This document shows, in pieces, positions 4,115 to 47,655 of a stretch of DNA of 64,000 nt (positions are counted from its first letter, which is position 1; every line of letters starts with the position of its first letter). Location of the stretch: positions 1,022,599 through 1,086,598 of the forward strand of contig NW_006921544.1 in NCBI RefSeq assembly GCF_000340215.1, in the 5' to 3' direction. The DNA comes from Pseudocercospora fijiensis CIRAD86 (lineage: Eukaryota > Ascomycota > Dothideomycetes > Mycosphaerellales > Mycosphaerellaceae). The translations under genes were made by a program, and so were the position numbers. The notes below the pieces were generated by a model, which worked only from the letters and a program-made list of their open reading frames with translations, had not been told where the DNA came from and did no database searches.

Positions 4115-4199
4115 TAGAGGCAGCAATTTTGTAGTAGAAGAGACTATTATAGATGCTAAGAGTTGTTACTATATAATTACCGCCTAAAAGATAGTAGCG

Positions 4200-5483
4200 A
4201 ACAATTAGAGACGAAGGGAAGATAGTTAAGAAGGAAGGGAGGACGAATAGAAAGCACTATATACTAGGGCAGAGGAGGTACTAAAGGTAGAAGATAGAAG
4301 AACCCCTAAGAGGGTATATAGGATAATGATTTCAGAACTCCTTAGAGGACTAAAAGCAATCTACAACTAGGCAAGCTACGTAATTACAAAGGTAGCTAAT
4401 ACAGTCGTAGCAAAGATTACGAAGAAACAATAGGAGATAAGCCTAAACTACCGTACCTAGGTAGTAGTAGCTAGTTAGGAGGCGCTAAAACCCCCGAGGA
4501 TAGTAGTTCGAGTCTACATTACGGACCTATAGGAGCAAAAGGAAATCTAAGGACTTATAGGGAAAGAGATTATAGAAAGAATTGCAGTTAAAGAGGTAAT
4601 TAGGGCTAAGAACGAAGGTAAAGGGGTAATCAAGCTATTTATAGTACAAGAGCAAGACAAAAAGAAGCTAGAAACATAAAAAGAATAGACAACTAAGATA
4701 GGGAAAACAGTAAAGGTCTCCTAATAGCAATTTATAATTATAGCCTATAGTATAATAAGAAGCTTTAAGGAAGAATAGGATATTAAGAGCCTATAGAGAC
4801 AAAACTAAGCTATATACCTAGGCCTAAAGATTACAAAAGTAGCATAGATTAAAAGGAAAATCGAAGAGACTAAGAAGCAGTCTTCCCTAATTATCTAGGT
4901 AGGGAGTATAGAGTAGGCTAATATAGTACTAGACTAGGGGTTGTTCTAGGACTTTAAAAGATTAGAAACAGAGATATATAGAAGCAACTATAGGATAATA
5001 CAGTGCTTCAAATGTTAACACTATAGACACTTAGTAGCTAAATATATAAAGACAACTAACACCTACTCCTATTATATAAGGGAGTACTAGGTTAAAGAAT
5101 ACAAAGCATATAAGGGAGAAGCAAGATATATATACTACACTAAAAGATACCCCTCTTAGGCGAAGGAATGCCTAGTAAGAATATAGGCAGCTAGGAAAGC
5201 GAAGGAAGCTAGAATCAATATACTAAAAAGATACACAACAAGCTAGGGTAGCTAGGTATAAAAGCAACCTAGCTAAGTGCTATAAAAGAGGTCTAGGCAA
5301 GATAATAGGTTTACATTTAGGGCCTTACTAGTATAAGAGAGTTACTAGCAACTAGGGAGACTAAGATACCTTAACATTATAGGAAAGGAAGCAGAGTAGA
5401 CAAAGCTTAGTCAAATGTTAGTTTAAAGTAAGGGAAGACTAAAGGAAAACTTATAGGGAAATGATATAGATAAAACCTAATAA
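4200..5483 (+). pseudogene. LINE A ORF1, zinc-knuckle nucleic-acid-binding protein
   Basis: One frame (codons starting at multiples of 3) stays readable, with stops only where RIP would make them from Gln or Trp codons. The C-terminal part holds a CCHC knuckle at 5004-5045 (C-x2-C-x4-H-x4-C, last Cys mutated to Tyr), then a second one with Cys-to-Tyr changes, then a third degenerate Cys/His cluster. The Tad1-family ORF1 protein coats the LINE RNA. The start is uncertain. An ATG at 4326 is kept here and in copy C but is ATA in B and D, and the frame is readable further upstream. The end is a stop that overlaps the ORF2 start; TAATAA at 5478-5483 is best read as a RIP-mutated ATGA overlap. Confidence 0.8.
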
Positions 5484-8400
5484 ACATTGCAACATTACTA
5501 AATATTATATAGTACAATGTTAATAAGAGTAAAGACAAGGTATAGAGGAGCTTCCTTTAAGCACTAAACCTAAAAGAATATTATATTATTGCAATCTAAG
5601 AGCCCTAGCTCAACCTATATATAAAGAGACTAGCAATAGTTAAAGACCTAAGATACTACCTAATTATCTACAACTAGGGAGCCCTAAGGATATACATCTA
5701 TATTAGTAAGGAGATAGATACAGAAACCTAGCAGGCTATACTATAGGAGGATAGGGACCTAATATTAGTTCAAGTAGAGACATCCTAAGGTACACTCTAA
5801 GTCTACTATATATACAACCTACTACTAGACTTAAGAAGCAGTACCTAACTGAAAACCTTAGAAAGACTACCTAGAGTTATCTAGGGGAATACCTACTAAA
5901 TCCTACTTAGGGATTTCAACCTCTACTACCCCCTCTAGGGCTTAGACTTTACCCTAGCTTACTACTTCCTAGTAGGAAGACTAATTGATATATTAGAGAG
6001 GGAAGGAATAGAAATTGTTACCCTAAAGGGACTAATTACTTAGGAGGCAAGAGGAAGCAGTAGCATACTAGACCTATACTTTGTATTATATTAGATTAGG
6101 AACAGGATTATAAGATATAGGGTCAACTAGGAACTAGAAGAATTATTAGACTACTTCCCGGTACAGATTAAGCTAAATGTCTAAGCCAATTAGGAAAGGG
6201 AACTAGAGGAGAAGCTTAACTAGAAAGGTGCCTAATAAGGCAGGATTAGGGAGGAACTAGAAAGGGACCTAAAACTAGAGGAACTCTTAATAAAGTACCT
6301 ACTAAGGCTAGAGGACATTAATAAAGCAGTAGAAGAACTAATAGGAATCCTAAAACAGGTAGCTAGAAAGCATACCCTAGCAAAGAATTATTTACTATAC
6401 TAGTAACTATACTAGACTAGTAAGTATATAAGGAAGGTTAAAGTAGTAAGGAAGGCTAGGAGACAGTAGATACAAACCTATACCTAGGAAGTATAGGACA
6501 ACTATAATAAAGCCTGCTAGGAAAAGAAGATCTAGATTAAGAAAGATAAGATACAAGAATAGAGATCTATAATAGGAATAATTACAAAGAAACTAGAGGA
6601 GATATAGAGGATAGCTAAATAGGTAAGGAGACCTAAATAGGACAAGGATATACTACTACAATTCCCGGACATTATAGACTAATAAGGACAAATACAGACT
6701 ACAATAGAAGGGAAAGTAAGAGCCCTAGGCTACTACTTCTTCTATAGAGAAGTACAAGCAGACCTATTAGATATAAAGGAGAAAGAACAAGAGACTCTAC
6801 TACTAGGTATACTAAGAGATACCTAGGTTAAACCCGAAACTATTGAAAGGATCCTAAAGAAAATTCTAGGCAATAAGGCACTAGGAGAAGACAAGATCTA
6901 TAATAAACTCCTAAAAGTATATAGGAAGGGGCTAGCCCTAGTACTAGCTAATATCTTTTCACAAAGCCTAGTACTAGGACACTACCTAAGACTATTTAGG
7001 AAGTCCCTAATAGTAGTGCTAAGGAAGCCCTAGAAGGAAGACTATATATAGCTTAAGGCCTATAGACTAATAGCCCTACTTAACACAATAGGCAAGGTGC
7101 TAGAAAAAATTGTCGCTAAAAGGCTAATAACCTTTACCGAGGAAAGGAATATCCTTCCTAAAGGCTAGATAGGAGGAAGAAAGAAGAGGTCAATACTAAT
7201 AGCTATAGAACTAATTACAGAACAGATCAAGCATATCTAGTACTATAGTTAAAACTAGGTAGCAACCCTCCTCTCCCTTAATATCTTAGGAGCCTTTAAT
7301 AATATCTCCTATAAAAGGCTCCTATATATACTTAAATAGAAAGCTATACTAAACTAGATAGTCTAATTTATCTAGTCCTTCCTATAGGAAAGATTAATAT
7401 AGCTTATTCTAGGCAAATTCAAATTAGACCTAATACTAACTAAAAAGGGAATTCCCTAAGGATTAATACTCTCCCTAATCCTCTTCCTTATCTTTATAGT
7501 AGACCTACTCCTACTCCTAGAATCAAAAAATATATTAGCATTAGGGTTTGTAGATAATACAAACATCCTAGCCTAGTCTAAGATAATAGAAACCAACTGT
7601 AAGATCCTAGAAGAGAAGCACTAAGAGTATAAAAAGTAGGCAAGGAGGTATAGAGCAAAATTCGCCCTAGAAAAGTACTAGCTTATCTACTTTAGTAAGG
7701 CTAAATCAACCTATAATATAAAGCAATTAATCACTATCTAAGGCTTTAAAACACAACTATTAGCAGAGCTTAGGGTACTAGGGATCTAGCTAGATCTAAA
7801 ACTAAATTAGGGACTATAAGTAAAGAAGGCAAAGCAGAGGGTAGATACTAATATACAATCTATTAATAGGCTTATAGCCTCTATATAGGGGGCTACATTC
7901 GAGAAAGCTAAAGTTATATATAAAGCAATTGTTAAGCTAGTAATGCTATATAGAGTATAGATATAGATAGCCTAGGAGAAAACACTAAAGAGGATTAAGC
8001 AACTAGTTAGCAGGTCCTAAACCTAAAGCCTAAAGAAAATCCTAGGAGTATATAAAACTATACTAACAAGGGTAGTAGAAATGGAATTAGGGATCCTACT
8101 AGTTAAACAATACTTTAAGGGACTAAGATACTAATATATAGTAAAGACAATAGAATACCTAGCCTAATAGACTATTCAAAAGGCACTAGACAAGATAAAA
8201 GCCTAATATATTAGGACTAGGAGGCGAGATAGACTATAAATAACTCCCTAGAAAGTCAAAGACCTAGAGTAATATAGAGTCTTAATAAGAGAAATGCTAG
8301 AGAAAGAGCTTTAGGGACTAAATATAAGGCTAAAGGAAGATAAGCTAAAGGGAGAGAAACAAAGCCTAGTAGAATCAATTGCTAGATACCTATAGAAGTA

Positions 8401-8938
8401 GGAATAGAACAAAATACAAGTTAGACTAGGAACCCTAAAGGCACTAATTAAATTTGGTCAATACAACTACTAGCTCTATAAGGACCTAAACAGGGCCGAG
8501 GCAAGCCTAGCTATCTAAATTAGATCTAAATATATTAGACTTAGATCTTACCTATTTAGAAGAAACGTCCTAGGAATTGAAAGCAGAGCTTACTAATATA
8601 GCTACCAATCTTAGAACCCTAAGTATATACTGCTAGTCTGCCCTTAATAGTTAGAAGGTAGAAGTAATTAGAGACTAAAAGCAATAGAAAGGGAATACGA
8701 CAAGCTAATCTAGAGTAAAGAAGACCTAAAGAGGATAGTAAAGTAGATTATTAAACAGGGATTTGTATAACAATTCGTACTAGCAAGGGAAACTAAGGAG
8801 TAGATAAGAAGGAGGGAAGAAGAGGGGGAAAGAAGGGCAGGGTAGTAGGCAAGGTAGTTAGAGGGTAACAACTATAATACTAGTATACCCTAGAGGAAGG
8901 AAAATAGGGAAACGAGGAAGATCAACACTTATAAATAG
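5480..8938 (+). pseudogene. LINE A ORF2, endonuclease / reverse transcriptase
   Basis: A single frame of 3459 bp (1152 codons plus stop) runs from a mutated start (ATA at 5480, presumably once ATG) to TAG at 8936-8938. The TAG is also present in the unmutated copy E, so it is the true stop. The N-terminal part resembles an apurinic-type endonuclease, which nicks target DNA. The middle is reverse transcriptase, with the F-x-D-D box at 7547-7558 now reading FVDN because GATGAY became GATAAT. The remainder is a long C-terminal region with basic and acidic stretches. Stops are frequent but no frameshift is seen. The enzyme cannot be active: Trp codons are stops and the second catalytic Asp is Asn. 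Confidence 0.88.
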
Positions 8939-9007
8939 GACAGGAGGGAGGTTTTTACTAACCAAGTTGGTTTCCTACCTAAAACAATATATAGAAACAG
9001 ACCTACA

Positions 9008-9024
9008 TAGGCCGAAAGGCACTA
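9008..9024 (+). other. LINE A 3' UTR hairpin with GAAA loop
   Basis: TAGGCC-GAAA-GGC-A-CTA folds as a 6-bp stem with one bulged A and a GNRA-type tetraloop, 28 bases before the end of the element. It is conserved in all five copies. It is a candidate signal by which the reverse transcriptase recognises its own RNA (inference). Confidence 0.7.
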
Positions 9025-9051
9025 CAACAGGCAAATGAAATATCTATCTAT

Positions 9052-9069
9052 CTATATAGATATAGTAGA
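9052..9069. repeat. Target-site duplication of LINE A, 3' side
   Basis: CTATATAGATATAGTAGA, an 18-bp perfect match to 4097-4114. It directly follows the (TATC)n tail. Confidence 0.85.
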
Positions 9070-15755: not shown

Positions 15756-16037
15756 TATTCTAGCCGTATCTATATACTTAATTTCTATAGAACCGCCCTA
15801 GCGAAAGGTAGGAAGTCCCGTAGACCCCTATCGGATCGTACCGTTAACCGTACTAATTGTATAGGAAATAAAAAGTGCTCTAATTTTAGCGGAGATATAT
15901 CGTATATGTAATTCGTAGTAATATAGACCGAGGACTATATCTCTAATTAATAGAGATATAGGGGTTGCTATAGTTATATTACGTAGATATACCGCCCTAG
16001 TAGTATAGGGATAATATTAGATAGCCGTAATATATAG
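15756..16037. repeat. Direct repeat, right copy, first part
   Basis: Homologous to 12761 onward and interrupted at 16037 by LINE copy C. The rest of this repeat continues at 25858-25946. Confidence 0.65.
16022..16037. repeat. Target-site duplication of LINE C, left
   Basis: TAGCCGTAATATATAG, identical over 16 bp to 25842-25857. It sits inside the right-hand direct repeat. Confidence 0.85.
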
Positions 16038-16068
16038 ATAGATAGATAGATATTTTATTTGCCTGTTA

Positions 16069-16085
16069 TAGTGCCTTTCGGCCTA
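16069..16085 (-). other. LINE C 3' UTR hairpin with GAAA loop
   Basis: The complement of TAGGCC-GAAA-GGC-A-CTA, the same stem with a bulged A as in the other copies, close to the (GATA)n end. Confidence 0.7.
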
Positions 16086-17126
16086 TGTAGGTCCGTTTCT
16101 ATGTATTGTTTTAGGTAGGAAACTAACTTAGTTAGTAAAAACCTCCCTCCTATCCTATTTATAAGTGTTAATCTTCCTCGTTTCCCTGTTTTCCTTCCTC
16201 TAGGGTATACTAGTGTTATAGTTGTTACCCTCTAACTACCTTACCTGCTACCTTACCCTTCTTTCCCCCTCTTCTTCCCTCCTTCTTATCTACTCCTTAG
16301 TTTCCTTTGCTAGTACGAATTGTTATATAAATCCCTATTTAATAATCTACTTTACTATCCTCTTTAGGTCTTCTTTACTCTAGATTAGCTTATCGTATTC
16401 CCTTTCTATTGCTTTTAGTCTCTAATTACTTCTACCTTCTAACTATTAAGGGTAGACTAGCAGTATATACTTAGGGTTCTAAGACTAGTAGCTATATTAG
16501 TAAGCTCTACTTTCAATTCCTAGGACGTTTCTTCTAAACAGGTAAGATCTAAGTCTAATATATTTAGATCTAATTTAGATAGCTAGGCTTGCCTCGGCCT
16601 TATTTAGGTCCTTATAGAGCTAGTAGTTGTGTTAACTAAATTTAATTAGTGCCTTTAGGGTTCCTAGTCTAACTTGTGTTTTGTTCTATTCCTACTCCTA
16701 TAGGTATCTAGCAATTGATTCTACTAGGCTTTATTTCTCTCCCTTTAGCTTGTCTTCCTTCGGCCTTATATTTAGTCCCTAAAGCTCTTTCTCTAGCATT
16801 TCTCTTATTAAGACTCTATATTGCTCTAGGTCTTTAACTTTCTAGGGAGTTATTTGTAGTCTGTCTCGCCTCCTAGTCCTAATATATTAGGCTTTTATCT
16901 TATCTAGTGCCTTTTAAATAGTCTATTAGGCTAGGTATTCTATTGTCTTTACTACATATTAGTGTCTTAGTCCCTTGAAGTATTGTTTGACTAGTAGGAT
17001 CCCTAATTCCATTTCTACTACCCTTGTTAGTATAGTTTTATATACTCCTAGGATTTTCTTTAGGCTTTAGGTTTAGGACCTACTAACTAGTTACTTAATC
17101 CTCTTTAGTGTTTTCTCCTAGGCTGT

Positions 17127-17142
17127 CTATATCTATGCTCTA
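17127..17142. repeat. Target-site duplication of LINE B, left
   Basis: CTATATCTATGCTCTA. The right copy at 22018-22033 differs by one RIP-type G/A change. Copy D carries the same stretch uninterrupted near 43865, which shows the empty site. Confidence 0.85.
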
Positions 17143-17287
17143 ATCGGAAAAAATAGCAACGAACAATCAGAAACGAAGGGAAGACAGTTAAGAAGGAAGG
17201 GAGGACGAATAGAAAGTACTATATACTAGGGCAGAGGAGGTACTAAAGGCGGAAGATAGAAGAACCCCTAAGAGGGCATATAGGATA

Positions 17288-18445
17288 ATAATCTTAGAAC
17301 TCCTTAGAGGACTAAAAGCAATCTATAACTAGGCAAGCTACGTAATTATAAAGGTAGCTAATACAGTCGCAGTAAAGATTACGAAGAAACAATAGGAAAC
17401 AAGCCTAAACTACCGCACCTAGGTAGTAGTAGCTAGTTAGAAGGCGCTAAAACCCCCGAGGATAGTAGTTAGAGTCTATATTACGGACCTATAAGAGCAA
17501 AAGGAAATCTAAGGACTTATAGGGAAAGAGATTATAGAAAGAATTATAGTTAAAGAGGTAATTAGGGCTAGGAACGAAGGAAAAGGGGTAATTAAGCTAT
17601 TTATAGTACAAGAGTAGGACAAAAAGAAGCTAGAAATATAAAAAGAATAGACAACTAAGATAGGGAAAACAGTAAAGGTCTCCTAATAGCAATTTATAAT
17701 TATAGCCTATAGTATAATAAGAAGCTTTAAGGAAGAATAGGATATTAGGAGCCTATAGAGACAAAACTAAGCTATATGCCTAGGCCTAAAGATTATAAAA
17801 GTAGTATAGATTAAAAGGAAAATCGAAGTGACTAAGAAGCAGTCTTCCCTAATTATCTAGGTAGGGAGTATAGAGCAAGCTAATATAGTACTAGACTAGG
17901 GGTTGTTCTAGGACTATAAGAGATTAGAAACAGAGATATATAGAAGCAACTATAGGATAATACAGTACTTTAAATGTTAACACTATAGACACTTAGCAGC
18001 TAAGTGTATAAAGACAACTAATACCTGCTCCTATTATATAGGGGATTACTAGGTTAAAGAATGCAAGGTATATAAGGGAGAAGCAAGATATATATACTAT
18101 ACTAAAAGACACCCCTCTTAGGCGAAGGAATGCCTAGTAAGAATATAGGCAGCGAGGAAGGCAAAGGAAGCTAGAATTAATATACTAAAAAGATATATAA
18201 TAAGCTAGGGTAGCTAGGTATAGAAGCAACCTAGCTAAGTGCTACAAAAGAGGTCTAGACAAGATAATAGGTTTATATTTAGGGCCTTACTAGTATAAGA
18301 GAATCACTAGCAACTAGGGAGACTAAGATACCTTAACATTATAGGAAAGGAAGTAGGGCAGATAAAGCTTAGTTAAATGTTAGTCTAAAGTAAGGGAAGA
18401 CTAAAGGAAAACTTATAGGGAAATAATATAGACGAAACCTAATAA
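17288..18445 (+). pseudogene. LINE B ORF1, zinc-knuckle protein
   Basis: Colinear with copy A ORF1. The ATG kept in A is ATA here. The CCHC knuckle begins at 17966 with its first Cys changed to Tyr, whereas the second knuckle keeps one Cys that A has lost. The stop overlaps the mutated ORF2 start. The true start may lie upstream of 17288, because the frame stays readable back to about 17165. Confidence 0.75.
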
Positions 18446-21400
18446 ACATTATAATATTACTAAACATTATATAGTATAATGTTAATAAGAGCAAAGATAA
18501 GGTATAAAGGAGCTTCCTTTAAGTACTAAACCTAAAAGAACATTACATTATTGCAATCTAAGAGCCCTAGCTCAACCTATATATAAAGAGACTAGCAACA
18601 GTTAAAGACCTAAGATACTACCTAATTATCTATAACTAAGGAGCCCTAAGGACATATATCTATATTAGTAAGGAGATAGATATAGAAACCTAGCAGGCTA
18701 TACTATAGGAGGATAGGGACCTAATATTAGTTTAAGTAGAGACATCCTAAGATACACTCTAAGTCTACTATATATACAACCTACTACTAGACTTAAGAAG
18801 CAGTACCTAACTAAAAACCCTAGAAAGACTACCTAGAGTTATTTAGGGGAATACCTACTAAATCCTACTTAGGGATTTTAACCTCTACTACCCCCTCTAG
18901 GGCTTAGACTTTACCCTAGCTTACTACTTCCTAGTAGGAAGACTGATTAATATATTAGAGAGGGAAGAAATAGAAATTGTTACCCTAAAGGGACTAATTA
19001 CTTAGGAGGCAAGAGGAAGCAGTAGTATACTAGACCTATACTTTGTATTATATTAGATTAGGAATAGGATTACAAGATATAGGATTAACTAGGAACTAGA
19101 AGAATTATTAGACTACTTCCCGGTACAGATTGAACTAAATGTCTAAGCCAATTAGGAAAGGGAACTAGAGGAGAAGCTTAACTAGAAGGGTACCTAATAG
19201 GGTAGGATTAGGGAGGAACTAGAAAGGGACCTAAAACTAGAGGAACTCTTAATAAAGTACCTACTAAGGCTAGAGGATATTAACAAAGTAGTAGAAGAAC
19301 TAATAGGAATCCTAAAATAGGTAGCTAGAAAGCATACCCTAGTAAAGAAACATTCACTATACTAGCAACTATACTAGACTAGTAAATATATAAGGAAGGT
19401 TAAAGTAGTAAGGAAGGCTAGGAGGTAGTAGATACAAACCTATATCTAGGAAGTATAGGACAACTATAACAAAGCCTACTAGGAAAAGAAGATCTAGATT
19501 AAGAAAGACAAGATATAAGAATAGAGATCTATAATAGGAATAATTATAAAGAAACTAGAAGAGATATAGAGGATAGCTAAATAGGCAAGGAGACCTAAAT
19601 AGGATAAGGACATACTACTACAATTCCCGGACATTATAGACTAATAAGGACAAATATAGACTATAATAGAAGGGAAAGTAAGAGCCCTAGGCTAACACGT
19701 CTTCTATAGAAAAGTATAAGCAGACCTATTAGATATAAGGGAGATAGAACAAGAGACTCTACTACTAGGTATACTAAGAGATACCTAGGTTAAACCCGAA
19801 ACTATTGAAAAGATCCTAAAGAAAATTCTAGGTAATAAGGCACTAGGAGAAGACAAGATCTATAACAAACTTCTAAAAGTATATAGGAAGGGGCTAGCCC
19901 TAGCACTAGCTAATATCTTTTTATAAAGCCTAGTACTAGGATACTACCTAAGACTATTTAGGAAGTCCCTAATAGTAGTACTAAGGAAGCCCTAGAAGGA
20001 AGACTATATACAGCTTAAGGCCTATAGACTAATAGCCCTACTTAATATAATAGGTAAGGTACTAGAAAAAATTGTCGCTAAAAGGCTAATAACCTTTACC
20101 GAGGAAAGGAATATCCTTCTTAAAGGCTAGATAGGAGGAAGAAAGAAAAGGTTAATACTAATAGCTATAGAACTAATTATAGAACAGATTAAGTATATCT
20201 AGCACTATAGTTAAAACTAGGTAGCAACCCTCCTCTCCCTTAATATCTTAGGAGCCTTTAATAATATCTCCTATAAAAGGCTCCTATATATACTTAAATA
20301 GAAAGCTATACTAAACTAGATAGTCTAATTTATCTAGTCCTTCCTATAGGAAAGATTAACACAGCTTATTTTAGGCAAATTCAAATTAGACCTAATACTA
20401 ACTAAAAAGGGAATCCCTTAAGGATTAATACTCTCCCTAATCCTCTTCCTTATCTTTATAGTAGACCTACTCCTACTCCTAGAATCAAAAAACATATTAG
20501 CATTAGAGTTTATAGATAATACGAACATCCTAGCCTAGTCTAAGACAATAGAAACTAACTATAAGATCCTAGAAGAGAAGTACTAGGAGTATAAAAAATA
20601 GGTAAGGAGGTATAGAGCAAAATTCGCCCTAGAAAAGTACTAGCTTATCTACTTTAGCAAGGCTAAATCAACCTATAATATAAAGCAATCAATTACTATC
20701 TAAGGCTTTAAAACCCAACTATTAGCAGAGCTTAGGGTACTAGGGATCTAGCTAGATCTAAAACTGAATTAAGGACTATAAGTAAAGAAGGCAAAGCAGA
20801 GGGTAGATGCTAATATACAATCCATTAATAGGCTTATAGCCTCTATATAGGGGGCTATATTCGAGAAAGCCAAAGTTATATATAAAGCAATTGTCAAACT
20901 AGCAATGCTATATAGAGTATAGATATAGACAGCCTAAGAGAAAACACTAAAGAGGATTGAACAACTAGTTAGTAGGTCCTAAACCTAAAGCCTAAAGAAA
21001 ATCCTAGGAGTATACAAAACTATACTAATAAGGGTAGTAGAAATGGAATTAGGGATCCTACTAGTCAAACAATACTTTAAGGGACTAAGACACTAATATA
21101 TAGCAAAGACAATAGAATACCTAGCCTAACAGACTATCTAAAAGGCACTAGACAAGATAAAAGCCTAGTATATTAGGACTAGGAGGCGAGACAGACTACA
21201 AATAACTCCCTAGAAAGTTAAAGACCTAGAGTAATATAGAGTCTTAATAAGAGAAATACTAGAGAAAGAGCTTTAGGGACTAAATATAAGGCTAAAGGAA
21301 GACAAACTAAAGGGAGAGAAACAAAGCCTAGCAGAATCAATTACTAGATACCTATAGGAGTAGGAATAAAATAAAACATAAGTTAGACTAGGAACCCTAA

Positions 21401-21900
21401 AGGCACTAATCAAATTTAGTCAACACAACTACTAGCTCTATAAGGACCTAAATAGGGCCGAGGCAAGCCTAGCTATCTAAATCAGATCTAAACATATTAG
21501 ATTCAGATCTTACCTATTTAGAAGAAACGTCCTAGGAATTAAAAGCAGGGCTTGCTAATATAGCTACTAATCTTAGAACCCTAAGTATATGCTGCTAGTC
21601 TACCCTTAATAGTTAGAAGGCAGAAGTAATTAGAGACTAAAAGCAATAGAAAGGGAATACGACAAGCTAATCTAGAGTAAAGAAGATCTAAAGAGGATAG
21701 TAAAGTGGATTATTAAACAGGGATTTATATAACAATTCGTACTAGTAAGGGAAACTAAGGAGTAGATAAGAAGGAGGGAAGAAGAGGGGGAAAGAAGGGT
21801 AGGGCAGTAGGCAAGGTAGTTAGAGGGTAACAACTATAATACTAGTATACCTTAGAGGAAGGAGAATAAGGAAACAAGGAAGATCAACACTTATAAATAG
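18442..21900 (+). pseudogene. LINE B ORF2, endonuclease / reverse transcriptase
   Basis: 3459 bp, from a mutated start (ATA at 18442) to the conserved TAG at 21898-21900. The endonuclease-like N-terminus, reverse transcriptase and C-terminal extension are as in copy A. The catalytic box at 20509-20520 reads FIDN. It has many stops at former Trp and Gln codons and no frameshift relative to A. It is inactive. Confidence 0.88.
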
Positions 21901-21969
21901 GATAGGAGGGAGGTTTTTACTAACTAAGTTAGTTTCCTACCTAAAACAATATATAGAAACAGACCTATA

Positions 21970-21986
21970 TAGGCCGAAAGGTACTA
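21970..21986 (+). other. LINE B 3' UTR hairpin with GAAA loop
   Basis: Same structure as in A. One C has become T (GGT for GGC), turning a G-C pair into G-T and so keeping the stem. Confidence 0.65.
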
Positions 21987-22017
21987 CAATAGGCGAATGA
22001 AATATCTATCTATCTAT

Positions 22018-22033
22018 CTATATCTATACTCTA
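22018..22033. repeat. Target-site duplication of LINE B, right
   Basis: CTATATCTATACTCTA, following the (TATC)n tail. It matches 17127-17142 with one change. Confidence 0.85.
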
Positions 22034-24500
22034 TATAGCATTGCTAGCTTAACAATTGCTTTATATATAACTTTAGCTTTCTCGAATATAGCCCCCTATA
22101 TAGAGGCTATAAGCCTATTAATGGATTGTATATTAGTATCTGCCCTCTACTTTACCTTCTTTACTTATAGTCCCTAATTCAGTTTTGGATCTAGCTAGAT
22201 CCCTAGTACCCTAAGCTCTACTAATAGTTAGGTTTCAAAGCCTTAGATAGTAATTAATTGCTTTATATTATAGGTTGATTTAGCCTTACTAAAGTAGATA
22301 AGCTAGTACTTTTCTAGGGCGAATTTTGCTCTATACCTCCTTACCTATTTTTTATACTCTTAATACTTCTCTTCTAGGATCTTATAGTTAGTTTCTATTG
22401 TCTTAGACTAGGCTAGGATGTTTGTATTATCTACAAACCCTAATACTAATGTGTTTTTTAATTCTAGAAGTAGGAGTAGGTCTACTATAAAGATAAGGAA
22501 GAGGATTAGGGAGAGTATTAATCCTTAGGGGATTCCCTTTTTAGTTAGTATTAGGTCTAATTTGAATTTGCCTAGAATAAGCTATATTGATCTTTCCTAT
22601 AGGAAGGACTAGATAAATTAGACTATCTAGTTTGGTATAGCTTTCTATTTAAGTATATATAGGAGCCTTTTATAGGAGATATTGTTAAAGGCTCTTAAGA
22701 TATTAAGGGAGAGGAGGGTTACTACCTAGTTTTAACTATAGTGCTAGATATGCTTAATCTGTTCTATAATTAGTTCTATAGCTGTTAGTATTAACCTCTT
22801 CTTTCTTCCTCCTATCTAGCCTTTAGGAAGGATGTTCCTTTCCTCGGTAAAGGTTATTAGCCTTTTAGCGATAATTTTTTCTAGTACCTTACCTATTATA
22901 TTAAGTAGGGCTATTAGTCTATAGGCCTTAAGCTGTATATAGTCTTCCTTCTAGGGCTTCCTTAGCACTACTATTAGGGACTTTCTAAATAGTCTTAGGT
23001 AGTGTCCTAGTACTAGGCTTTATAAAAAGATATTAGCTAGTACTAGGGCTAGCCCCTTCCTATATGCTTTTAGGAGTTTATTATAGATCTTGTCTTCTCC
23101 TAGTGCCTTATTGCCTAGAATTTTCTTTAGGATCCTTTTAATAGTTTCGGGTTTGACCTAGGTATCTCTTAATATGCCTAGTAGTAGAGTCTCTTATTCG
23201 TTCTCCTTTATATCTAATAGGTCTACTTATACTTCTCTATAGAACAAGTAGTAGCCTAGGGCTCTTGCTTTCCCTTCTATTATAGTCTATATTTGTCCTT
23301 ATTAGTCTATAATATCCGGGAATTATAGTAGTATATCCTTGTCCTATTTAGGTCTCCTTACCTATTTAGCTATCCTCTATATCTCCTCTAGTTTCTTTAT
23401 AATTATTCCTATTATAGATCTCTATTCTTATATCTTATCTTTCTTGATCTAGATCTTCTTTTCCTAGTAGGCTTTATTATAGTTGTCCTATACTTCCTAG
23501 GTATAGGTTTATATCTACTGTCTCCTAGCCTTCCTTACTACTTTAACCTTCCTTATATACTTACTAGTCTAGTATAGTTGCTAGTATAGTAAATGTTTCT
23601 TTGCTAGGGTATACTTTCTAGCTACCTATTTTAGGATTCCTATTAGTTCTTCTACTGCCTTATTAATGTCCTCTAGCCTTAGTAGGTACTTTGTTAAGAG
23701 TTCCTCTAGTTTTAGGTCCCTTTCTAGTTCCTCCCTAATCCTGCCCTATTAGGTACCTTTCTAGTTAAGCTTCTCCTCTAGTTCCCTTTCCTAATTAGCT
23801 TAGATATTTAGCTTAATCTATACCGGGAAGTAGTCTAATAATTCTTCTAGTTCCTAGTTAACCCTATATCTTATAATCCTGTTCCTAATCTAATATAATA
23901 CAAAGTATAGGTCTAGTATGCTACTGCTTCCTCTTGCCTCCTAAGTAATTAGTCCCTTTAGGGTAACAATTTCTATTCCTTCCCTCTCTAGTATATTAAT
24001 TAGTCTTCCTACTAGGAAGTAGTAAGCTAGGGTAAAGTCTAAGCCCTAGAGGGGGTAGTAGAGGTTGAAATCCCTAAGTAGGATTTAGTAGGTGTTCCCC
24101 TAGATAACTCTAGGTAGTCTTTCTAGGGTTTTTAGTTAGGTACTGCTTCTTAAGTCTAGTAGTAGGTTGTATATATAGTAGACTTAGAGTATACCTTAGG
24201 ATGTCTCTACTTAAACTAATGTTAGGTCCCTATCCTCCTATAGTATAGCCTACTAGGTTTCTGTATCTATCTCCTTACTAATATAGATATATATCCTTAG
24301 GGCTCCCTAGTTATAGATAATTAGGTAGTATCTTAGGTCTTTAACTATTGCTAGTCTCTTTATATATAGGTTAAGCTAGGGCTCTTAGATTGTAATAATA
24401 TAATGTTCTTTTAGATTTAGTACTTAAAGGAAGCTCCTCTATACCTTGTCTTTGCTCTTGTTGATATTGTACTATATAATATTTAGTAATATTGCAATAT

Positions 24501-25658
24501 TTATTAGGTTTTATCTATATCATTTCCCTATAAGTTTTCCTTTAGTCTTCCCTTACTTTAGACTAACATTTAACTAAGCTTTGTCTGCCCTGCTTCCTTT
24601 CCTATAATGTTAAGGTATCTTAGTCTCCCTAGTTGCTAGTGACTCTCTTATGCTAGTAAGGCCCTAAATGTAAACCTATTATCTTGCCTAGACCTCTTTT
24701 ATAGCACTTAGCTAGGTTGCTTCTATATCTAGCTACCCTAGCTTATTATATATCTTTTTAGTATATTGATTCTAGCTTCCTTCGCTTTCCTAGCTACCTA
24801 TATTCTTACTAGGCATTCCTTCGCCTAGGAGGGGTGTCTTTTAGTATAGTATATATATCTTACTTCTCCCTTATATACTTTATATTCTTTGACCTAGTGC
24901 TCCCCTACGCAATAGGAGTAGGTATTAGTTGTCTTTATATATTTAGCTGCTAAGTGTCTATAGTGTTAACATTTGAAGCACTGTATTATCCTATAGTTGC
25001 TTCTATATATCTCTGTTTCCAATCTTTTAAAGTCCTAGAATAACCCCTAGTCTAGTACTATATTAGCCTACTCTACACTCCCTACCTAGATAATTAGGGA
25101 AGACTGCTTCTTAGTCTCTTCGATTTTCCTTTTAATCTATACTACTTTTGTAATCTTTAGGCCTAGGTATATAGCTTAGTTTTGTCTCTATAGGCTCTTA
25201 ATATCCTATTCTTCCTTAAAGCTTCTTATTATACTATAGGCTATAATTATAAATTGCTATTAGGAGACCTTTGCTGTTTTCCCTATCTTAGTTGTCTATT
25301 CTTTTTGTGTTTCTAGCTTCTTTTTGTCTTGCTCTTATACTATAAATAGCTTAATTACCCCTTTACCTTCGTTCCTAGCCCTAATTACCTCTTTAACTAT
25401 AATTCTTTCTATAATCTCTTTCCCTATAAGTCCTTAGATTTCCTTTTGCTCCTATAGATCCGTAATATAGACTCGAACTACTGTCCTCGGGGGTTTTAGC
25501 GCCTCCTAACTAGCTACTGCTGCCTAAGTGCGGTAGTTTAGGCTTATCTCCTATTGTTTCTTCGTAATCTTTACTACGACTGTATCTGCTACCTTTGTGA
25601 TTACGTAGCTTGCCTAGTTGTAGATTGCTTTCAGTCCTCTAAGGAGTTCTAAAATCAT
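24501..25658 (-). pseudogene. LINE C ORF1, zinc-knuckle protein
   Basis: Colinear with ORF1 of copy A. The ATG (complement of 25656-25658) is preserved, as in A. The knuckle region lies near 24930-24980, and its first knuckle keeps Cys codons. The stop overlaps the ORF2 start. The frame stays readable upstream of the ATG, so the real start may be earlier. Confidence 0.75.
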
Positions 25659-25841
25659 TATCCTATATACTCTCTTAGGGGTTCTTCTATCTTCTGCCTT
25701 TAGTACCTCCTCTGCCCTAGTATATAGTGCTTTCTATTCGTCCTCCCTTCCTTCTTAACTGTCTTCCCTTCGTCTCTAATTGTTCGCTACTATCGTTCCG
25801 TAGACTTAATTAATTAGTATATAACTAGGCTCGAGTAAAGC

Positions 25842-25857: not shown

Positions 25858-25946
25858 CGATTAAACTAGTAGAGCCGTCGACAAATCTAGCTTAGCTTCC
25901 CTAGCGTTCCTATATAAGCTCTAAGGTTTACAAACAAACAAACAAT
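25858..25946. repeat. Direct repeat, right copy, second part
   Basis: Continues the repeat interrupted at 16037. It ends in (ACAA)n like the left copy near 13140. Confidence 0.6.
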
Positions 25947-38652: not shown

Positions 38653-38657
38653 ACTAA
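38653..38657. repeat. Target-site duplication of the Gypsy element, left
   Basis: ACTAA, repeated at 50642-50646. RecQ copy 2 has a single ACTAA at the matching point (near 62563), the empty site. Confidence 0.88.
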
Positions 38658-38853: not shown

Positions 38854-38868
38854 TACGCTTCCCTTCTA
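38854..38868 (-). other. Polypurine tract of the Gypsy element
   Basis: On the sense strand the bases just inside the 3' LTR read AGAAGGGAAGCGTA, a purine run in the place where plus-strand DNA synthesis is primed. Confidence 0.6.
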
Positions 38869-40080
38869 AAGGCCGCGCCCTCGTAGCCTATCTATATTCC
38901 TATCTAATCTCTATTGCCGCTAACTTAGCAGGTCTAATAAGCTGTTTAGCCCGTACTAAATTAAACACTTAACTACCTAATTATATAACCCTATTAAACC
39001 TCACTTTTAATACAATATCTAACTCTAACTACGCTATCCTTATATATAATAAAGTAAAGGGATATAAAGCTATAAGAATTAAGGGCTATCGACTAATTAC
39101 AATATAGGCGCGTCTTCCCTACTATAATAGGTAGACGTATAAGGTATTATAGCCCTGCCTCCGCTCTAAGTAATGTCGTTCCGAGTTCTTTGCGTCTACT
39201 CTAAAAGACCTAGAAATGTCCGCTTCCGAGGGTTTGTCCGTTCCGAGGGTTGCTCTTATTATTACGAGGGCTATTATTTACTATCGTAGTTTTACTAGCC
39301 CTAATTAGTTAGGTTTAGTAGCCTTTAAGTATTAACTAATTATATCTTTTTAAAAAACTTAGTTCTTCTAGTTTCTATAGGTAAAGGCTATTATAAGTAT
39401 AGTAGTAGAGGTTCGCCTCGCTTAAAGGATTAGATAGATCGAGGAGTAACCTATTATCCGCAAGATCGACCCCGGCTAGCTTAGCTCTATAGTTTTTGCC
39501 CTTAGTTAGTCTATTAGTCGCTTAATCTTTTAGGCGGCTTAAAGTTTTAATTAAAGTTTTGATTAAAGGTGCCTTAGGCTCGTAGTATAGGTAAGGTTGT
39601 ATCCGTAGGCGTAGTAATAATAGTAAGTAATATTAACAATAGCGGCGCTAGTCGTCTTAGCGCTAACTTTACCTTGCTTTCGATTTCCTTCTTCGACTAA
39701 TAATACACTCTATAATACCGTTACTAATATAGCTACGCCGGCCGCCGGCGTACTACTAGCTCGTAGCGCAATACTATTACCTTTATTACTGTTATTCGTA
39801 CGCGCGCGTATATCGCCCTTATCGAACGCTTAGGTCTCGAGGCCTCGATAGAATAAAGAATAAGAGAGGGACCTATAGGGCGTATTAGTAAAGAGGTAGA
39901 GTCCTCGGAAGAGTAGTCGATTAGTTAACAGTTATAGTGCGCTCGTTAGCACTCGTTACGCGTTCGTTATCGTAGTATAGTCTTATTGTCCTTTGCCGAC
40001 AATTGCTTGCCTCTAATTAGTTAGCTTAATAGTACCCCGGGGGTAGTATTATTCCTAGGCGACATTATAGGCCCTTAGCC
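38869..40080 (-). other. Gypsy 3' non-coding region
   Basis: No open frame or domain is seen between the chromodomain and the polypurine tract. It contains a short tandem duplication at 39217-39252 (TCCGAGGGTT twice) and another at about 39545-39580 (TTAAAGTTTT-type). It is long for a Gypsy 3' UTR and may hold a further degraded insertion. Confidence 0.5.
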
Positions 40081-40109
40081 TTCTTCTTGTTCTTTATACT
40101 AGTCTAATA

Positions 40110-40265
40110 CTTATCTAACAACTCGGTTATGTCCTCGAAGGAACCTTTAGCTTCCTATAAGTCCTATTCTAGCGAATAGCCTTGCTATCTTAATAGGTAC
40201 TCCTTTTTACCTTTCCTAGTCCGGTGCTATAGGATACGTTCTATAGACTATAGCTCTTTACTATC
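40110..40265 (-). other. Chromodomain at the end of Gypsy integrase
   Basis: On the sense strand the frame gives ILADSKEL, then a stretch RTRKGKKEYLLR followed by stop (TAG for TGG, Trp), QGY, and later EDITELLDKY. The aromatic and Glu-Tyr-Leu spacing is that of chromodomains of chromoviruses, which direct integration to histone-marked chromatin. Confidence 0.75.
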
Positions 40266-42763
40266 TGCTAGTATGTCTTCGTATTTAGTAGGGGCTTCAT
40301 CCCCTTCGCGTAGGTAATACGGCTTAAGGAGGGATATATAGAAGGTATTATAGATAGTATAATAAGGGGGAAGCTACAACTAATAGGCTTATATGCCCTT
40401 AGCCTCTCGGATACGGAATAGACTAATATATCTTAGTGCGAGCTTAGGCCTTGTTTTCCTATTAGGCGATAGGTATTTGCGGATACGGAGGTTCTTTATA
40501 CTAAGTATAACTATATCGCCTTACGTAAAGGTTATCGGTATATAACGCTTATCGTAGTAGGTCTTTTAGTACTCTTAAGCCTTTGTTAGCTTCTTAGCTA
40601 TCTTAGTATAGATTTCTCGTATTTTCTAGACACGCTCTATTACTACTAGTGTTTCTAGTACTTAACGCGCTTCCCTTTCCTTACGCTCGGCCTCGAGCGG
40701 TAGGGGGTCTTATAGTATAGCAGCGTTCTAGCCTATTATAGCTATATAGGGTAAGATCTTAGTTAATGAATGTACACTATTGTTGTATACGAATTCTATA
40801 GGCTATAGGAGGTTAACCTAATCCTCGGGGTTCTTATTAATATAGCTGCGTAGGTACTACTATAGGGTAGTATTCTGCCTCTCTGTTTAACCGTTAGTCT
40901 ATAGATAGAAGGCTATTAATAGCCGATGCTTTAGTCTTAGCTATAAGTAAATCTCGCTCTAATAGTAAGATATTAGTATCGATCTACGATTAGACACTAT
41001 CCCTTTAGGGGTTCCCTAATAGGTATAGAAGATGTTAGTCTATAGCGCTTCTGCTATATTAATAGTAGTCTAATCTTTCCGCGCCGGGATATATCGAGCG
41101 CCTTTAGTAAATCGATCTACTACAATAAGGATAGCATTATATACATCCTTGCTACCCCTACGCTTAGTAGGAGGAAGGCCTATAATAAAGTCTATTATTA
41201 GCTTAGCAAATAGCTTCTTTAGAACCGGGAGCGAAGACAACTCGCCGAACGGTAAGTACTTCGGTACTTTAACTCGCTAGTATACTATATAGGTCTGTAT
41301 ATACTCCTTTATATACCGCTTACTATTTAGCTAGTAGTATATACGCGATAGTAGCTCGTGCGACCTCTCTATACTATAGTAACTAGCGAGCTTACTATTA
41401 TAGTGCCTCTTTAAAAGCTCTTATCTAATCGATTGTTTAGCGGGGATATAGTATCTGCCCTTAAACTTTAAGTAACCCTTATCGTCGATCGACTAATTAC
41501 TCTTACTAGATCGAGTCGTTCGCCTACTTATAAGCCTATTAATACGGTTAATAGCAAAGGCGTCCCTCCGCTAAGCCCGTAATAGCTTATCTATAAACGA
41601 TTAACTATCCCTATTTGCAAGGTTATTTAATAGCACCCTCGCTATTAAACGAGGTACGTATTATATATATCTAATAGTACTAGTAGCCGGAACTACTATA
41701 ACCTCTTCTATAGTGCTGTCGCTATAGATAGCAATATCTTTAATCGAGTTATTATAGCTCGAGCGATCTACGTCCTTTCTAACGCATACTAGAAGAACGA
41801 CAACTCCGCTATAGTATTTGTTGCCGCCGCGGGGTCCGGAAGTCCGCTTATCCTACGCTTACTTATTAATAATACGGGCTATAGCAATCTTATACTACAG
41901 GGTTAGAAACAATAAATTGATATACTAAGTCTCGCTATCGTAGTTAGGTCGCCTCTATAGGCTATTAGTAGGGTTGCTTACGCCTAGCTAATATAATATA
42001 TTAAAATCGAACCTAGCGAGGTAGACGGCCTATCTAGCCTATCGACCTATAACCCTAGTAACCTTCGTAATTCTACGGAGGTTGTTATAGTCCGTATAGA
42101 CCTAAATTGTATACTAAGCACTATCGAGATAGTAGCGCTAATACTTAAAGGCTTCTACGATTACTAAGAGCTCTTGTTCGTAGGTCTCGTAGCGACGCTT
42201 AGTATCGATTATCTTCCTTAAGAAGAAGGCAATTAGGTGCTAGTAATAGTTATTATCTAATTGTTATAATATAATAGCCGATATAGCGAACTGTAAAGCG
42301 TTAGTCTCAATTCGGATCTGCTTGCTTAGTACGAAATAGTATAATAAGGGGACTTCAGTAAATCGCTTCTTTAGACCGTTAAAAGCGGCTTGTGTTTTGT
42401 TAGTCTACCTAAACTCTCTAGAAGGGTTTCCCTTAGTTTTAGTAAGCTTAGTTAGGGGCATTACATGCCGTAAATAGCCCTTAATAAACCGACGGTAGAA
42501 GTTAGCAAAACCTAGGAATAATTAAAGCTCCTTAATACTAGTAGGCGTTAGCTACTTAGTAATAGTCTTAATCCGATTAGGATTAGCCTTAACACCCTCG
42601 GTTAATACGAGGAAGCCGAGGAATAACACCTCTTTAGTAGCAAAGGTGCATTTAGAAGGTTTGTAATATAGACTATATATTCTTAGGCGATCGAGTACCT
42701 TACGGACTATAGCCTAGTACTCCGTAATATTAGGCGATTATATATAAACTAGGATGTTATCTA

Positions 42764-42778
42764 GGTAAACTATATAGA
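42764..42778. repeat. Target-site duplication of LINE D, left
   Basis: GGTAAACTATATAGA, matching 47656-47670 (GGTAAACTGTATAGA) with one RIP-type change. In the Gypsy element it lies next to the codons for the RT catalytic box. Confidence 0.88.
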
Positions 42779-42804
42779 TAGATAGATATTTCATTTGCCT
42801 GTTG

Positions 42805-42821
42805 TAGTGCCTTTCGGCCTA
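42805..42821 (-). other. LINE D 3' UTR hairpin with GAAA loop
   Basis: Complement of TAGGCC-GAAA-GGC-A-CTA, unmutated. Confidence 0.7.
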
Positions 42822-42890
42822 TGTAGGTCTGTTTCTATATATTGTTTTAGGTAGGAAACCAACTTAGTTAGTAAAAACCTCCCTCCTGTC

Positions 42891-45800
42891 CTATTTATAA
42901 GTGTTGATCTTCCTCGTTTCCTTATTTTCCTTCCTCTAGGGTATACTAGTGTTATAGTTGTTACCCTCTGACTACCTTGCCTACTACCCTACCCTTCTTT
43001 CCCCCTCTTCTTCCCTCCTTCTTATCTACTCCTTAGTTTCCCTTACTAGTGCGAATTGTTATACAAATCCCTATTTAATAATCTACTTTACTATCCTCTT
43101 TAGGTCTTCTTTGCTCTGGATTAGCTTGTCGTATTCCCTTTCTATTGCTTTTAGTCTCTAATTACTTCTGCCTTCTAACTATTAAGGGTAGACTAGCAGT
43201 ATATGCTTAGGGTTCTAAGATTAGTAGCCGTATTAGCAAGCCCTACTTTTAATTCCTAGGACGTTTCTTCTAAATAGGTAAGATCTGAATCTAATATGTT
43301 TAGATCTGATTTAGATAGCTAGGCTTGCCTCGGCCCTGTTTAGGTCCTTATAGAGCTAGTAGTTGTATTGACTAAATTTGATTAGTGCCTTTAGGGTTCC
43401 TAGTCTAACTTGTGTTTTGTTCTATTCCTACTCCTATAGGTATCTAGCTATTGATTCTATTAGGCTTTGTTTCTCTCTCTTTAGTTTGTCTTCCTTTAGC
43501 CTTGTATTTAGTCCCTAAAGCTCTTTCTCTAGCATTTCTCTTATTAAGACTCTATAGTGCTCTAGGTCTTTAACTTTCTAGGGAGTTATTTGTAGTCTGT
43601 CTCGCCTCCTAGTCCTAATGCACTAGGCTTTTATCTTGTCTAGTGCCTTTTAGATAGTCTGTTAGGCTAGGTATTCTATTATCTTTGCTATATATTAGTG
43701 TCTTAGTCCCTTAAAGTATTGTTTAACTAGTGGGATCCCTAATTCCATTTCCACTACCTTTATAGGTATAGTTTTGTATACTCCTAGGATTTTCTTTAGG
43801 CCTTAGGTTTAGGACCTGCTAACTAGTTGCTCGATCCTCTTTAGTGTTTTCTCCTAGGCTGTCTATATCTGTACTCTATATAGTATTGCTAGCTTGATAA
43901 TTGCTTTATATATAACTTTGGCTTTCTCGAATATAGCCCCCTATATAGAGGCTATAAGCCTATTAATAGATTGTATATTAGTATCTGCCCTCTGCTTTGC
44001 CTTCTTTACTTGTAGTCCCTAATTTAGTTTTAGGTCTAGCTAGATCCCTAGTACCCTAAGCTCTGCTAATAGTTAGGTTTCAAAGCCTTAGATAGTGATT
44101 GATTGCTTTATATTATAGGTTGATTTAGCCTTACTAAAGTAGATGAGCTAGTATTTTTCTAGGGCGAATTTTGCTCTATATCTCTTTACCTATTTTTTAT
44201 ACTCCTAGTGCTTCTCTTCTAGGATCTTGCAGTTGGTTTCTATTGTCTTAGACTAGGCTAGGATGTTTGTGTTATCTATAAACCCTAATGCTAATATATT
44301 TCTTAATTCTAGGAGTAGGAGTAGGTCTACTATAAAGATAAGGAAGAGGATTAGGGAGAGTATTAATCCTTAGGGGATTCCCTTTTTAGTTAGCATTAGG
44401 TCTAATTTGAATTTGCCTAGAATAAGCTATATTAACCTTTCCTATAGGAAGGACTAGATAAATTGGACTATCTAGTTTAGTATAGCCTTCTATTTAAGTA
44501 TATATAGGAGCCTTTTATAGGAGACATTATTAAAGGCTTCTAAGATATTAAGGGAGAGGAGGGTTGCTACCTAGTTTTAACTATAGTGCTAGATATACTT
44601 AATCTGTTCTGTAATTAGTTCTATAGCTATTAGTATTAACCTCTTCTTTCTTCCTCCTATCTAGCCTTTAGGAAGGATGTTCCTTTCCTTAGTAAAGGTT
44701 GTTAGCCTTTTAGCGATAATTTTTTCTAGCACCTTGCCTATTATATTAAGTAGGGCTATTAGTCTGTAGGCCTTAAGCTGCGTATAGTCTTCCTTCTAGG
44801 GCTTCCTTAGCACTACTATTAGGGACTTCCTAAATAGTCTTAGGTAGTGTCTTAGTGCTAGGCTTTGTAAAAAGATATTAGCTAGTACTAGGGCTAGCCC
44901 CTTCCTATATGCTTTTAGAAGTTTGTTATAGATCTTGTCTTCTCCTAGTGCCTTATTGCCTAGAATTTTCTTTAGGATCCTTTTAATAGTTTCGGGTTTA
45001 ACCTAGGTATCTCTTAGTATACCTAGTAGTAGAGTCTCTTGTTCTTTCTCCTTTATGTCTAATAGGTCTACTTGTACTTTTCTATAGAAGAAGTATTGGC
45101 CTAGGGCTCTTGCTTTCCCTTCTATTATAGTCTGTATTTGTCCTTGTTAGTCTATAATATCCGGGAATTATAGTAGTATGTCTTTGTCCTATTTAGGTCT
45201 CCTTGCCTATTTAGCTATCCTCTATATCTCCTCTAGTTTCTTTGTAATTATTCCTATTATAGATCTCTATTCTTATATCTTGTCCTTCTTAATCTAGATC
45301 TTCTTTTCCTAGTAGGCTTTATTATAGTTGTCCTATGCTTCCTAGGTATAGGTTTGTGTCTACTATCTCCTAGCCTTCCTTGCTACTTTAACCTTCCTTA
45401 TATACTTACTAGTCTAGTATAGTTGCTAGTATAGTAAATGTTTCTTTGCTAGGGTATGCTTTCTAGCTACCTATTTTAGGATTCCTATTAGTTCTTCTAC
45501 TGCCTTGTTAATGTCCTCTAGCCTTAGGAGGTGCTTTATTAAGAGTTCCTCTAGTTTTAGGTCCCTTTCTAGTTCCTCCCTAATCCTATCCTATTAGGCA
45601 TCTTTCTAGTTAAGCTTCTCCTCTAGTTCCCTTTCCTAATTGGCTTAGACATTTAGCTTAATCTATACCGGGAAGTGGTCTAATAATTCTTCTAGCTCCT
45701 AGTTAACCCTATATCTTATAATCCTGTTCCTAATCTAATATAATACAAAGTATAGGTCTAGTATACTACTGCTTCCTCTTGCCTCCTAAGTAATTAGTCC

Positions 45801-46349
45801 CTTTAGGGTAATAATTTCTATTCCTTCCCTCTCTAATATATCAATTAGTCTTCCTACTAGGAAGTAGTAAGCTAGGGTAAAGTCTGAGCCCTAGAGGGGG
45901 TAGTAGAGGTTGAAATCCCTAAGTAGGATTTAGTAGGTGTTCCCCTAGATAACTCTAGGTAGTCTTTCTAGGGTTTTCAGTTAGGTACTACTTCTTAAGT
46001 CTAGTAGTAGGTTGTATATATAGTAGACTTAGAGTGTACCTTAGGATGTCTCTACTTAAACTAATATTAGGTCCCTATCCTCCTATAGTATAGCCTACTA
46101 GGTTTCTGTATCTATCTCCTTACTAATATAGATGTATGTCCTTAGGGCTCCCTAGTTGTAGATAATTAGGTAGTATCTTAGGTCTTTAACTGTTGCTAGT
46201 CTCTTTGTATATAGGTTGAGCTAGGGCTCTTAGATTGCAATAATGTAATGTTCTTTTAGGTTTAGTACTTAAAGGAAGCTCCTCTATACCTTATCTTTGC
46301 TCTTATTAATATTGTACTGTATAATGTTTAGTAATATTGCAATGTTTAT
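42891..46349 (-). pseudogene. LINE D ORF2, endonuclease / reverse transcriptase
   Basis: 3459 bp, from a mutated start (complement of TAT at 46347-46349) to the conserved TAG (complement of 42891-42893). The RT box near 44275 reads FIDN, as in copy B. There are many stops at former Trp and Gln codons but no frameshift. The domain layout is as in copy A. Confidence 0.88.
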
Positions 46350-47503
46350 TAGGTTTTATCTATATTATTTCCCTATAAGTTTTCCTTTAGTCTTCCCTTA
46401 CTTTAGACTAACATTTGACTAAGCTTTGTCTGCCCTGCTTCCTTTCCTACAATGTTAAGGTATCTTAGTCTCCCTAGTTGCTAGTAACTCTCTTGTGCTA
46501 GTAAGGCCCTAAATGTGAACCTATTATCTTATCTAGACCTCTTTTATAGCACTTAGCTAGGTTGCTTCTGCACCTAGCTACCCTAGCTTATTATATATCT
46601 TTTTAGTATATTGATTCTAGCTTCCTTTGCCTTCCTAGCTGCCTATATTCTTACTAGGCATTCCTTCGCCTAAGAGGGGTGTCTTTTAGTATAGTATATA
46701 TATCTTGCCTCTCCCTTGTATGCTTTGTATTCTTTAACCTAGTAATCCCCTATATAATAGGAGTAGGTGTTAGTTGTCTTTATGCACTTAGCTACTAAGT
46801 GTCTATAGTATTAACATTTAAAGCACTACATTATCCTATAGTTGCTTCTGTGTATCTCTGTTTCTAATCTTTTAAAGTCTTAGAACAACCCCTAGTCTAG
46901 TACTATATTAGCTTGCTCTGTACTCCCTACCTAGATAATTAGGGAAGACTGCTTCTTAGTCTCTTCAATTTTCCTTTTAATCTATGCTACTTTTGTAATC
47001 TTTAGGCCTAGGTATATAGCTTAGTTTTGTCTCTATAGGCTCTTAATATCCTGTTCTTCCTTAAAGCTTCTTATTATACTATAGGCTATAATTATGAATT
47101 GCTATTAGGAGACCTTTGCTGTTTTCCCTATCTTAGTTATCTATTCTTTTTATGTTTCTAGCTTCTTTTTATCCTGCTCTTGTGCTATAAATAGCTTAAT
47201 TACCCCTTTACCTTCGTTCCTAGCCCTAATTACTTCTTTAACTGTAATTCTTTCTACAATCTCTTTCCCTATAAGTCCTTAGATTTCCTTTTGCTCCTAT
47301 AGGTCCGTAATATAGACTCTAACTACTATCCTCGGGGGTTTTAGCGCCTCCTAACTAGCTACTACTACCTAGGTGCGGTAGTTTAGGCTTGTCTCCTATT
47401 GTTTCTTCGTAATCTTTACTGCGACTATATTAGCTACCTTTGTAATTACGTAGCTTACCTAGCTGTAGATTGCTTTCAGTCCTCTAAGGAGTTCTAAGAT
47501 TAT
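46346..47503 (-). pseudogene. LINE D ORF1, zinc-knuckle protein
   Basis: Colinear with copy A ORF1. The ATG kept in A and C is ATA here (complement of 47501-47503). The zinc-knuckle region lies around 46780-46830 and has Cys-to-Tyr changes. The stop overlaps the ORF2 start. Confidence 0.75.
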
Positions 47504-47655
47504 TATCCTATATGCCCTCTTAGGGGTTCTTCTATCTTCCGCCTTTAGTACCTCCTCTGCCCTAGTATATAGTGCTTTCTATTCGTCCTCCCTTCCTTCT
47601 TAACTGTCCTCCCTTCGTCTCTAATTGTTCGCTGCTATTTTTATTCTTCCGCTAG

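Follow-up and report, generated by a model that had tools for sequence, protein, structure and literature searches.

Repeat-induced point mutation (RIP) has been described in repeats of Pseudocercospora fijiensis (passages of PMC3562529, PMC4981457 and PMC6710886), and orthologs of both RID and DIM-2 are reported for this species (in a passage of PMC13041039). Excerpts on related systems note a strong effect of the 3' neighbour on RIP (PMC10294615) and that about 91.9% of the RIP clusters in Neurospora change one strand only (PMC7296669). Among the transposons of P. fijiensis, the non-long-terminal-repeat (non-LTR) family 6 is listed with an average length of 4.9 kb (a passage of PMC4981457). 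Here, we study a long interspersed nuclear element (LINE), i.e., a non-LTR retrotransposon of ~4.87 kb with two open reading frames (ORF1 and ORF2), in a window of 64,000 nt, which is the whole stretch of DNA analysed and part of contig C13 (NW_006921544.1) in the 73.9-Mb genome of P. fijiensis CIRAD86. A sequence-only reading had observed that the sense strand of four copies has lost TG whichever way they face. We find an ordinary RIPped LINE family. With a probability of about 0.87, RIP acted separately on each copy and on both strands, while the one-sided look stems mainly from skewed base composition together with sequence context.

The strand asymmetry was quantified on an alignment of 43 rows, of which the 40 full-length copies were counted (C, F and E of Table 1 were left out as short) and 4869 of 5026 columns were kept. 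Besides A, B and D, these comprise the 37 copies that, of the 40 best matches of copy A, lie outside the window, with 40 of 296 candidates scored; diverged or truncated copies are therefore under-represented. On average, the sense strand holds 192 CA and 38 TG (CA:TG 5.1:1; 5.12), with the same picture in both orientations (189/38 for the 21 plus-strand copies, 196/37 for the 19 minus-strand copies). That is, the per-strand counts are not symmetric but follow the orientation of the element. The reported loss of TG in A and B with its mirror image in C and D is also evident from the plus-strand CA/TG counts of the window's copies (A 173/37, B 153/30, C 21/116, F 7/36, D 35/211). Both stretches of 60 bases cited as examples of it (two CA and no TG at 5701-5760 in A; four TG and no CA at 45421-45480 in D) read exactly as claimed.

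The damage said to be shared between the copies was traced as well. All of A, B, C and D show Asp-Asn in the reverse transcriptase box. For the Trp codons said to have become the same stops, 9 codons were checked, and at 8 of them TAG is found in all of A to D. The remaining codon is TAG in A and D and TGG in B, with C being absent there and its continuation F reading TAG. At the 3' site for which CTACA had been noted in A, C and D, we find CTACA in A and D as well as in F, which continues C on the 3' side, CTGCA in E, and CTATA in B. E, which had been taken as an unmutated copy, covers 145 bp of the 3' end and can be called less mutated.

The loss is not confined to TG of the sense strand, since sense CA is lost as well. 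Among the kept columns, 473 are CA/TA and 166 are TG/TA polymorphic, while fixed CA is found in 3 and fixed TG in 0 columns. Other C/T and A/G contexts are mostly near fixation, and copies richer in CA tend to be richer in TG (r 0.47). C-to-T changes at CpA are therefore present on both strands of this repeated DNA. The RIP index (CpA+TpG)/(ApC+GpT) amounts to 230/442 = 0.52 (means of 40 copies), which is below the threshold of 1.03 given in a passage of PMC3562529, and TpA/ApT is 1.7 to 2.0 in the window bins holding LINE copies. The genome contains two cytosine-5 DNA methylase loci (PF00145; L038 and L039, on contigs C6 and C1). In the methylase ORF on C1, the two matched parts are separated by an interruption that may represent an intron. 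Over 98% of its length, this ORF is 100% identical to a protein of P. fijiensis CIRAD86.

One could ascribe the asymmetry to the native composition of the element alone, i.e., without any RIP, given a sense strand of ~0.42 A and 0.23 T (0.20 G and 0.15 C; copies as printed) and an AC:GT ratio of 2.15. As the sole cause this is refuted by the fact that nearly all columns with CA or TG also contain TA. Furthermore, a stop is read at 94 codons of ORF2 in 20 or more of the 40 copies. We give this explanation practically no chance.

Composition matters in combination with a context rule. On both strands, in the LINE as well as in the rest of the window, retention increases with the base before C in the order CCA < TCA < ACA < GCA. 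For LINE sites kept in at least 3 copies, the mean numbers of copies (out of 40) that keep the base are, sense/antisense, 6.8/7.7 for CCA, 12.2/11.3 for TCA, 19.0/14.7 for ACA and 25.6/19.8 for GCA. Outside the LINE, where we computed the NCA share of NCA+NTA (e.g., CCA of CCA+CTA, GCA of GCA+GTA), the respective values for the two strands are 0.2%/0.2%, 0.8%/1.2%, 5.3%/6.2% and 10.1%/9.6%. The base after CA has an effect, too, with A being the coldest. In the same set of LINE sites, sense CA is made up of 48% ACA, 27% GCA, 15% TCA and 10% CCA, compared to 33%, 31%, 23% and 14%, respectively, for antisense CA. There are 394 sense vs. 101 antisense target sites (3.9-fold), while mean retention (0.466 vs. 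0.362) adds a further factor of 1.3. Thus, most of the asymmetry lies in the number of target sites. A beta-binomial extrapolation that includes fully lost sites, for which the fit diverged to infinity for CCA and TCA and is usable for ACA and GCA only, yields totals of 221 ACA and 106 GCA sites on the sense strand and of 38 and 31 on the antisense strand.

With many CA in weak contexts and the fewer TG more often in hot ones, the sense strand of each copy keeps some CA and few TG in either orientation. The premise that ordinary RIP would not follow orientation is hence mistaken: number and context of the targets belong to the sequence of the element and turn with it. The rule also covers the recurrent stops, since the Trp codon TGG is CCA on the antisense strand, i.e., in the hottest context, so that the same Trp codons become stops copy after copy. 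Of the three options that the sequence-only reading had put forward, the context rule, the target numbers and the composition skew support the one it had listed last, in which the preference of RIP for certain contexts meets a biased base composition. Overall, its observation is partly confirmed and its interpretation partly supported.

According to its first option, a live element acting in trans remobilised RNA transcribed from a RIP-mutated source, in which case the mutated sites would be shared by descent. Many in-frame stops are indeed common to all 40 copies, and among the genome-wide pattern matches one antisense CCA site is lost in 265/265 and one sense CCA site in 246/246. Nevertheless, there is no general linkage of mutated sites. 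For sites kept in 4 to 36 of the 40 copies, and with the means of sites and copies removed, mutated sites within 10 bases of each other have an r2 of 0.036 and more distant ones of 0.0254 to 0.0271, compared to 0.0257 when shuffled. Descent is visible by other markers: 16 of 19 shared (non-singleton) transversions define nested subfamilies (e.g., copy A plus seven others, or D plus three), while 3 of 19, all near the 3' end, misfit them, and an average pair of copies differs at 188 RIP-type and 53 other sites. Given near-zero linkage despite such markers, almost every hit arose separately in its own copy. Six sites do follow a subfamily exactly, yet all six are unmutated there, as is expected of an ordinary substitution in the source of a subfamily.

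The same conclusion follows from bases whose unmutated form restores a conserved residue, where the expected residues were taken from 16 homologous proteins, whatever polymorphism the LINE shows. For non-CCA contexts (TCA, ACA, GCA), the unmutated base is kept in some copies at 19/19 bases (8 antisense, 11 sense, with a single codon contributing a base to either strand), while total loss occurs in CCA only (zero retention at 11/16 sense and 6/7 antisense bases). Neither is the shared damage universal: 39 full-length copies are readable at the second Asp of the reverse transcriptase box, and 3 of them keep it, as do 42/262 genome-wide pattern matches. A source already mutated, though at CCA sites only, is still conceivable, but it would have been mutated on both strands, too, and would need a helper. 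We regard remobilisation in trans as very improbable. The simplest reading of these patterns is an intact source, with the hottest context saturated on either strand.

The second option assumed a deaminase, or RIP itself, that acts on one strand only and in connection with transcription; a link to the strand first synthesised at insertion can be considered along with it. Either would leave G-to-A changes on the sense strand. Deamination of first-strand cDNA by APOBEC3-type enzymes would give such sense-strand G-to-A changes. It would neither mutate sense CA nor follow this context rule in the non-LINE repeats nearby. In the LINE, antisense cytosines are not the only ones mutated, because the cytosines of sense CpA are heavily hit, too. 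In addition, the non-LINE repeats of the window obey the same context hierarchy on both strands, and retention of CCA and TCA is about alike on both strands of the LINE. What speaks for one-strand action is that antisense cytosines are retained less after matching of adjacent bases. As the main cause we consider it improbable, whereas a small residual strand difference remains.

This residual is one of the observations that weigh against our interpretation. When sites are matched for the -1 and +2 bases, the difference in retention between strands drops from 0.104 to 0.062 (threshold of 3 copies), with antisense still lower; over seven thresholds, the matched difference ranges from 0.041 to 0.080 (one-sided p 0.001 to 0.082). 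More of the difference is left by models of wider context: a regression with six flanking bases gives a strand effect of -0.45 (95% -0.68 to -0.19) vs. -0.55 raw, and a forest trained on sense sites predicts a retention of 0.443 for antisense sites, where 0.362 is observed. At conserved residues, ACA is retained in 92/240 cases on the sense but in 7/80 on the antisense strand, the latter representing 2 sites. Furthermore, the composition controls are less skewed (AC:GT 2.15, or 1.61 if RIP-touched neighbours are left out; both are no RIP targets) than CA:TG with 5.12. Members of a subfamily are slightly more alike at mutated sites than expected by chance (mean r 0.003 vs. -0.026 for all pairs; five subfamilies, 41 pairs, permutation p 0.0002; again for sites kept in 4 to 36 of the 40 copies), a weak excess that also favours remobilisation in trans. 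A regression on every site that one or more copies retain was rejected, since its strand effect of -0.73 is partly inflated by A-to-G noise, the frequency of which at AA sites comes close to that at TA sites.

A small strand difference of 4-8 points thus persists after adjacent-base matching. Wider context may account for it, because in this LINE the composition of the flanks cannot be separated from the strand. Alternatively, there could be a weak but real strand preference besides RIP, where antisense C, chiefly in ACA and GCA, mutates more in matched adjacent context, via an influence of transcription or of the first-made strand on RIP or repair. This we consider unlikely.

On the most probable reading, the history of the family is as follows. 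A LINE whose sense strand is rich in A and poor in CpG multiplied in P. fijiensis, presumably from an intact source. RIP, presumably in many rounds and with RID and DIM-2 as agents, then struck the copies one by one, changing C to T at CpA on either strand until most of the strong targets were gone. Its dependence on the base before C is steep (CCA > TCA > ACA > GCA), with a further dependence on the base after A. On the A- and G-rich sense strand, many CA are in weak contexts, while the fewer sense TG stand more often before A or G, which corresponds to TCA and CCA on the opposite strand.

Table 1. LINE copies and reading frames in the 64,000-nt window.
Feature	Coordinates	Strand	Basis or remark
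LINE copy A, full length	4115..9051	+	alignment to 40 copies; flanking direct repeats
ORF1 of copy A, broken by stops	4185..5600	+	no Pfam match with stops read through
ORF2 of copy A, broken by stops	5561..8944	+	RVT_1 match; reverse transcriptase box Asp-Asn near 7544
Piece F, 3' continuation of copy C	16030..17142	-	absent from the sequence-only reading
LINE copy B, full length, inserted into C/F	17143..22013	+	flanking repeats, alignment
LINE copy C, 5' part of the element split by B	22014..25797	-	alignment
LINE copy D, full length	42770..47642	-	alignment
Copy E, 3' end, less mutated	54863..55007	-	

The copies are listed in Table 1. They had been described as four simple separate insertions, but C and F form a single minus-strand element (16030-25797) into which B inserted, separating the two parts and duplicating the target site. 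Such duplications vary in length, with 18 bases at A, 20 at B and 14 at C/F. Those of B (17123-17142 and 22014-22033) differ by two transitions, which indicates that mutation continued after B had inserted. The repeats flanking A (4097-4114 and 9052-9069) overlap on the right with its CTAT-rich tail. Defined by these repeats, A starts ~70 bases upstream of where other copies begin aligning (4115-4186), so that its 5' end is longer or carries extra sequence. For D, a 14-base repeat with one difference was seen by eye, while the automated scan missed its 3' flank.

With stops read through, ORF2 matches the reverse transcriptase domain RVT_1 (E 3.7e-18). A putative APE-type endonuclease upstream, a domain that homologs carry, reaches 17.9 bits for Exo_endo_phos_2 and is thus under the cut-off of 27.4. 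Genome-wide, site-pattern matches are found at 246 to 265 places, about equally in both orientations, and the family counts at least some 250 copies in P. fijiensis. The LINE has about 30 CpG per 4.9 kb, compared to mostly ~40-70 CpG per kb in neighbouring RIPped repeats. Arg codons at its conserved positions are AGR. Elsewhere in the window, 15-1236 is a diverged tandem array with a spacing of ~161 bases (repeat families D1 and D2), and 32651-63536 contains long same-orientation repeat pairs ~12 kb and ~24 kb apart (repeat families D3, D5, D7, D9 and D12), which are 90-98% alike in the listed stretches.

These results remove a false lead: where the composition of an element is skewed, mutation driven by context can look like hypermutation that is strand-specific and heritable. 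At the same time, forty copies hit almost independently at the same sites are a natural record of RIP that gives per-site rates. Since the base preceding CpA changes the chance of escape many-fold (CCA ~0.2%, GCA ~10% outside the LINE), RIP indices blind to the 5' neighbour could give a wrong picture of intensity and strand balance where elements are skewed. Within the excerpts of the RIP-context and strand literature covered, we found no 5'-neighbour rule for CpA in ascomycetes, which is no proof of its absence. RIP in Microbotryum reportedly favours a trinucleotide.

Compared to known systems, the LINE resembles published P. fijiensis repeats in its CA-to-TA bias, depleted CpA and TpG, and stops in transposon ORFs; the respective passages (PMC3562529, PMC4981457, PMC6710886) do not treat 5'-neighbour context or a CA/TG imbalance of a single family. 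Given its class and length, which agree with those of family 6, also of high copy number (PMC4981457, in the part describing it), the LINE may belong to that family. As far as the excerpts on Neurospora crassa and Zymoseptoria tritici go (PMC7296669, PMC10294615), RIP is alike in changing C to T with a strong preference for CpA. The single-strand clusters of Neurospora are by themselves not tied to element orientation, whereas the imbalance of the LINE follows orientation in 40 copies.

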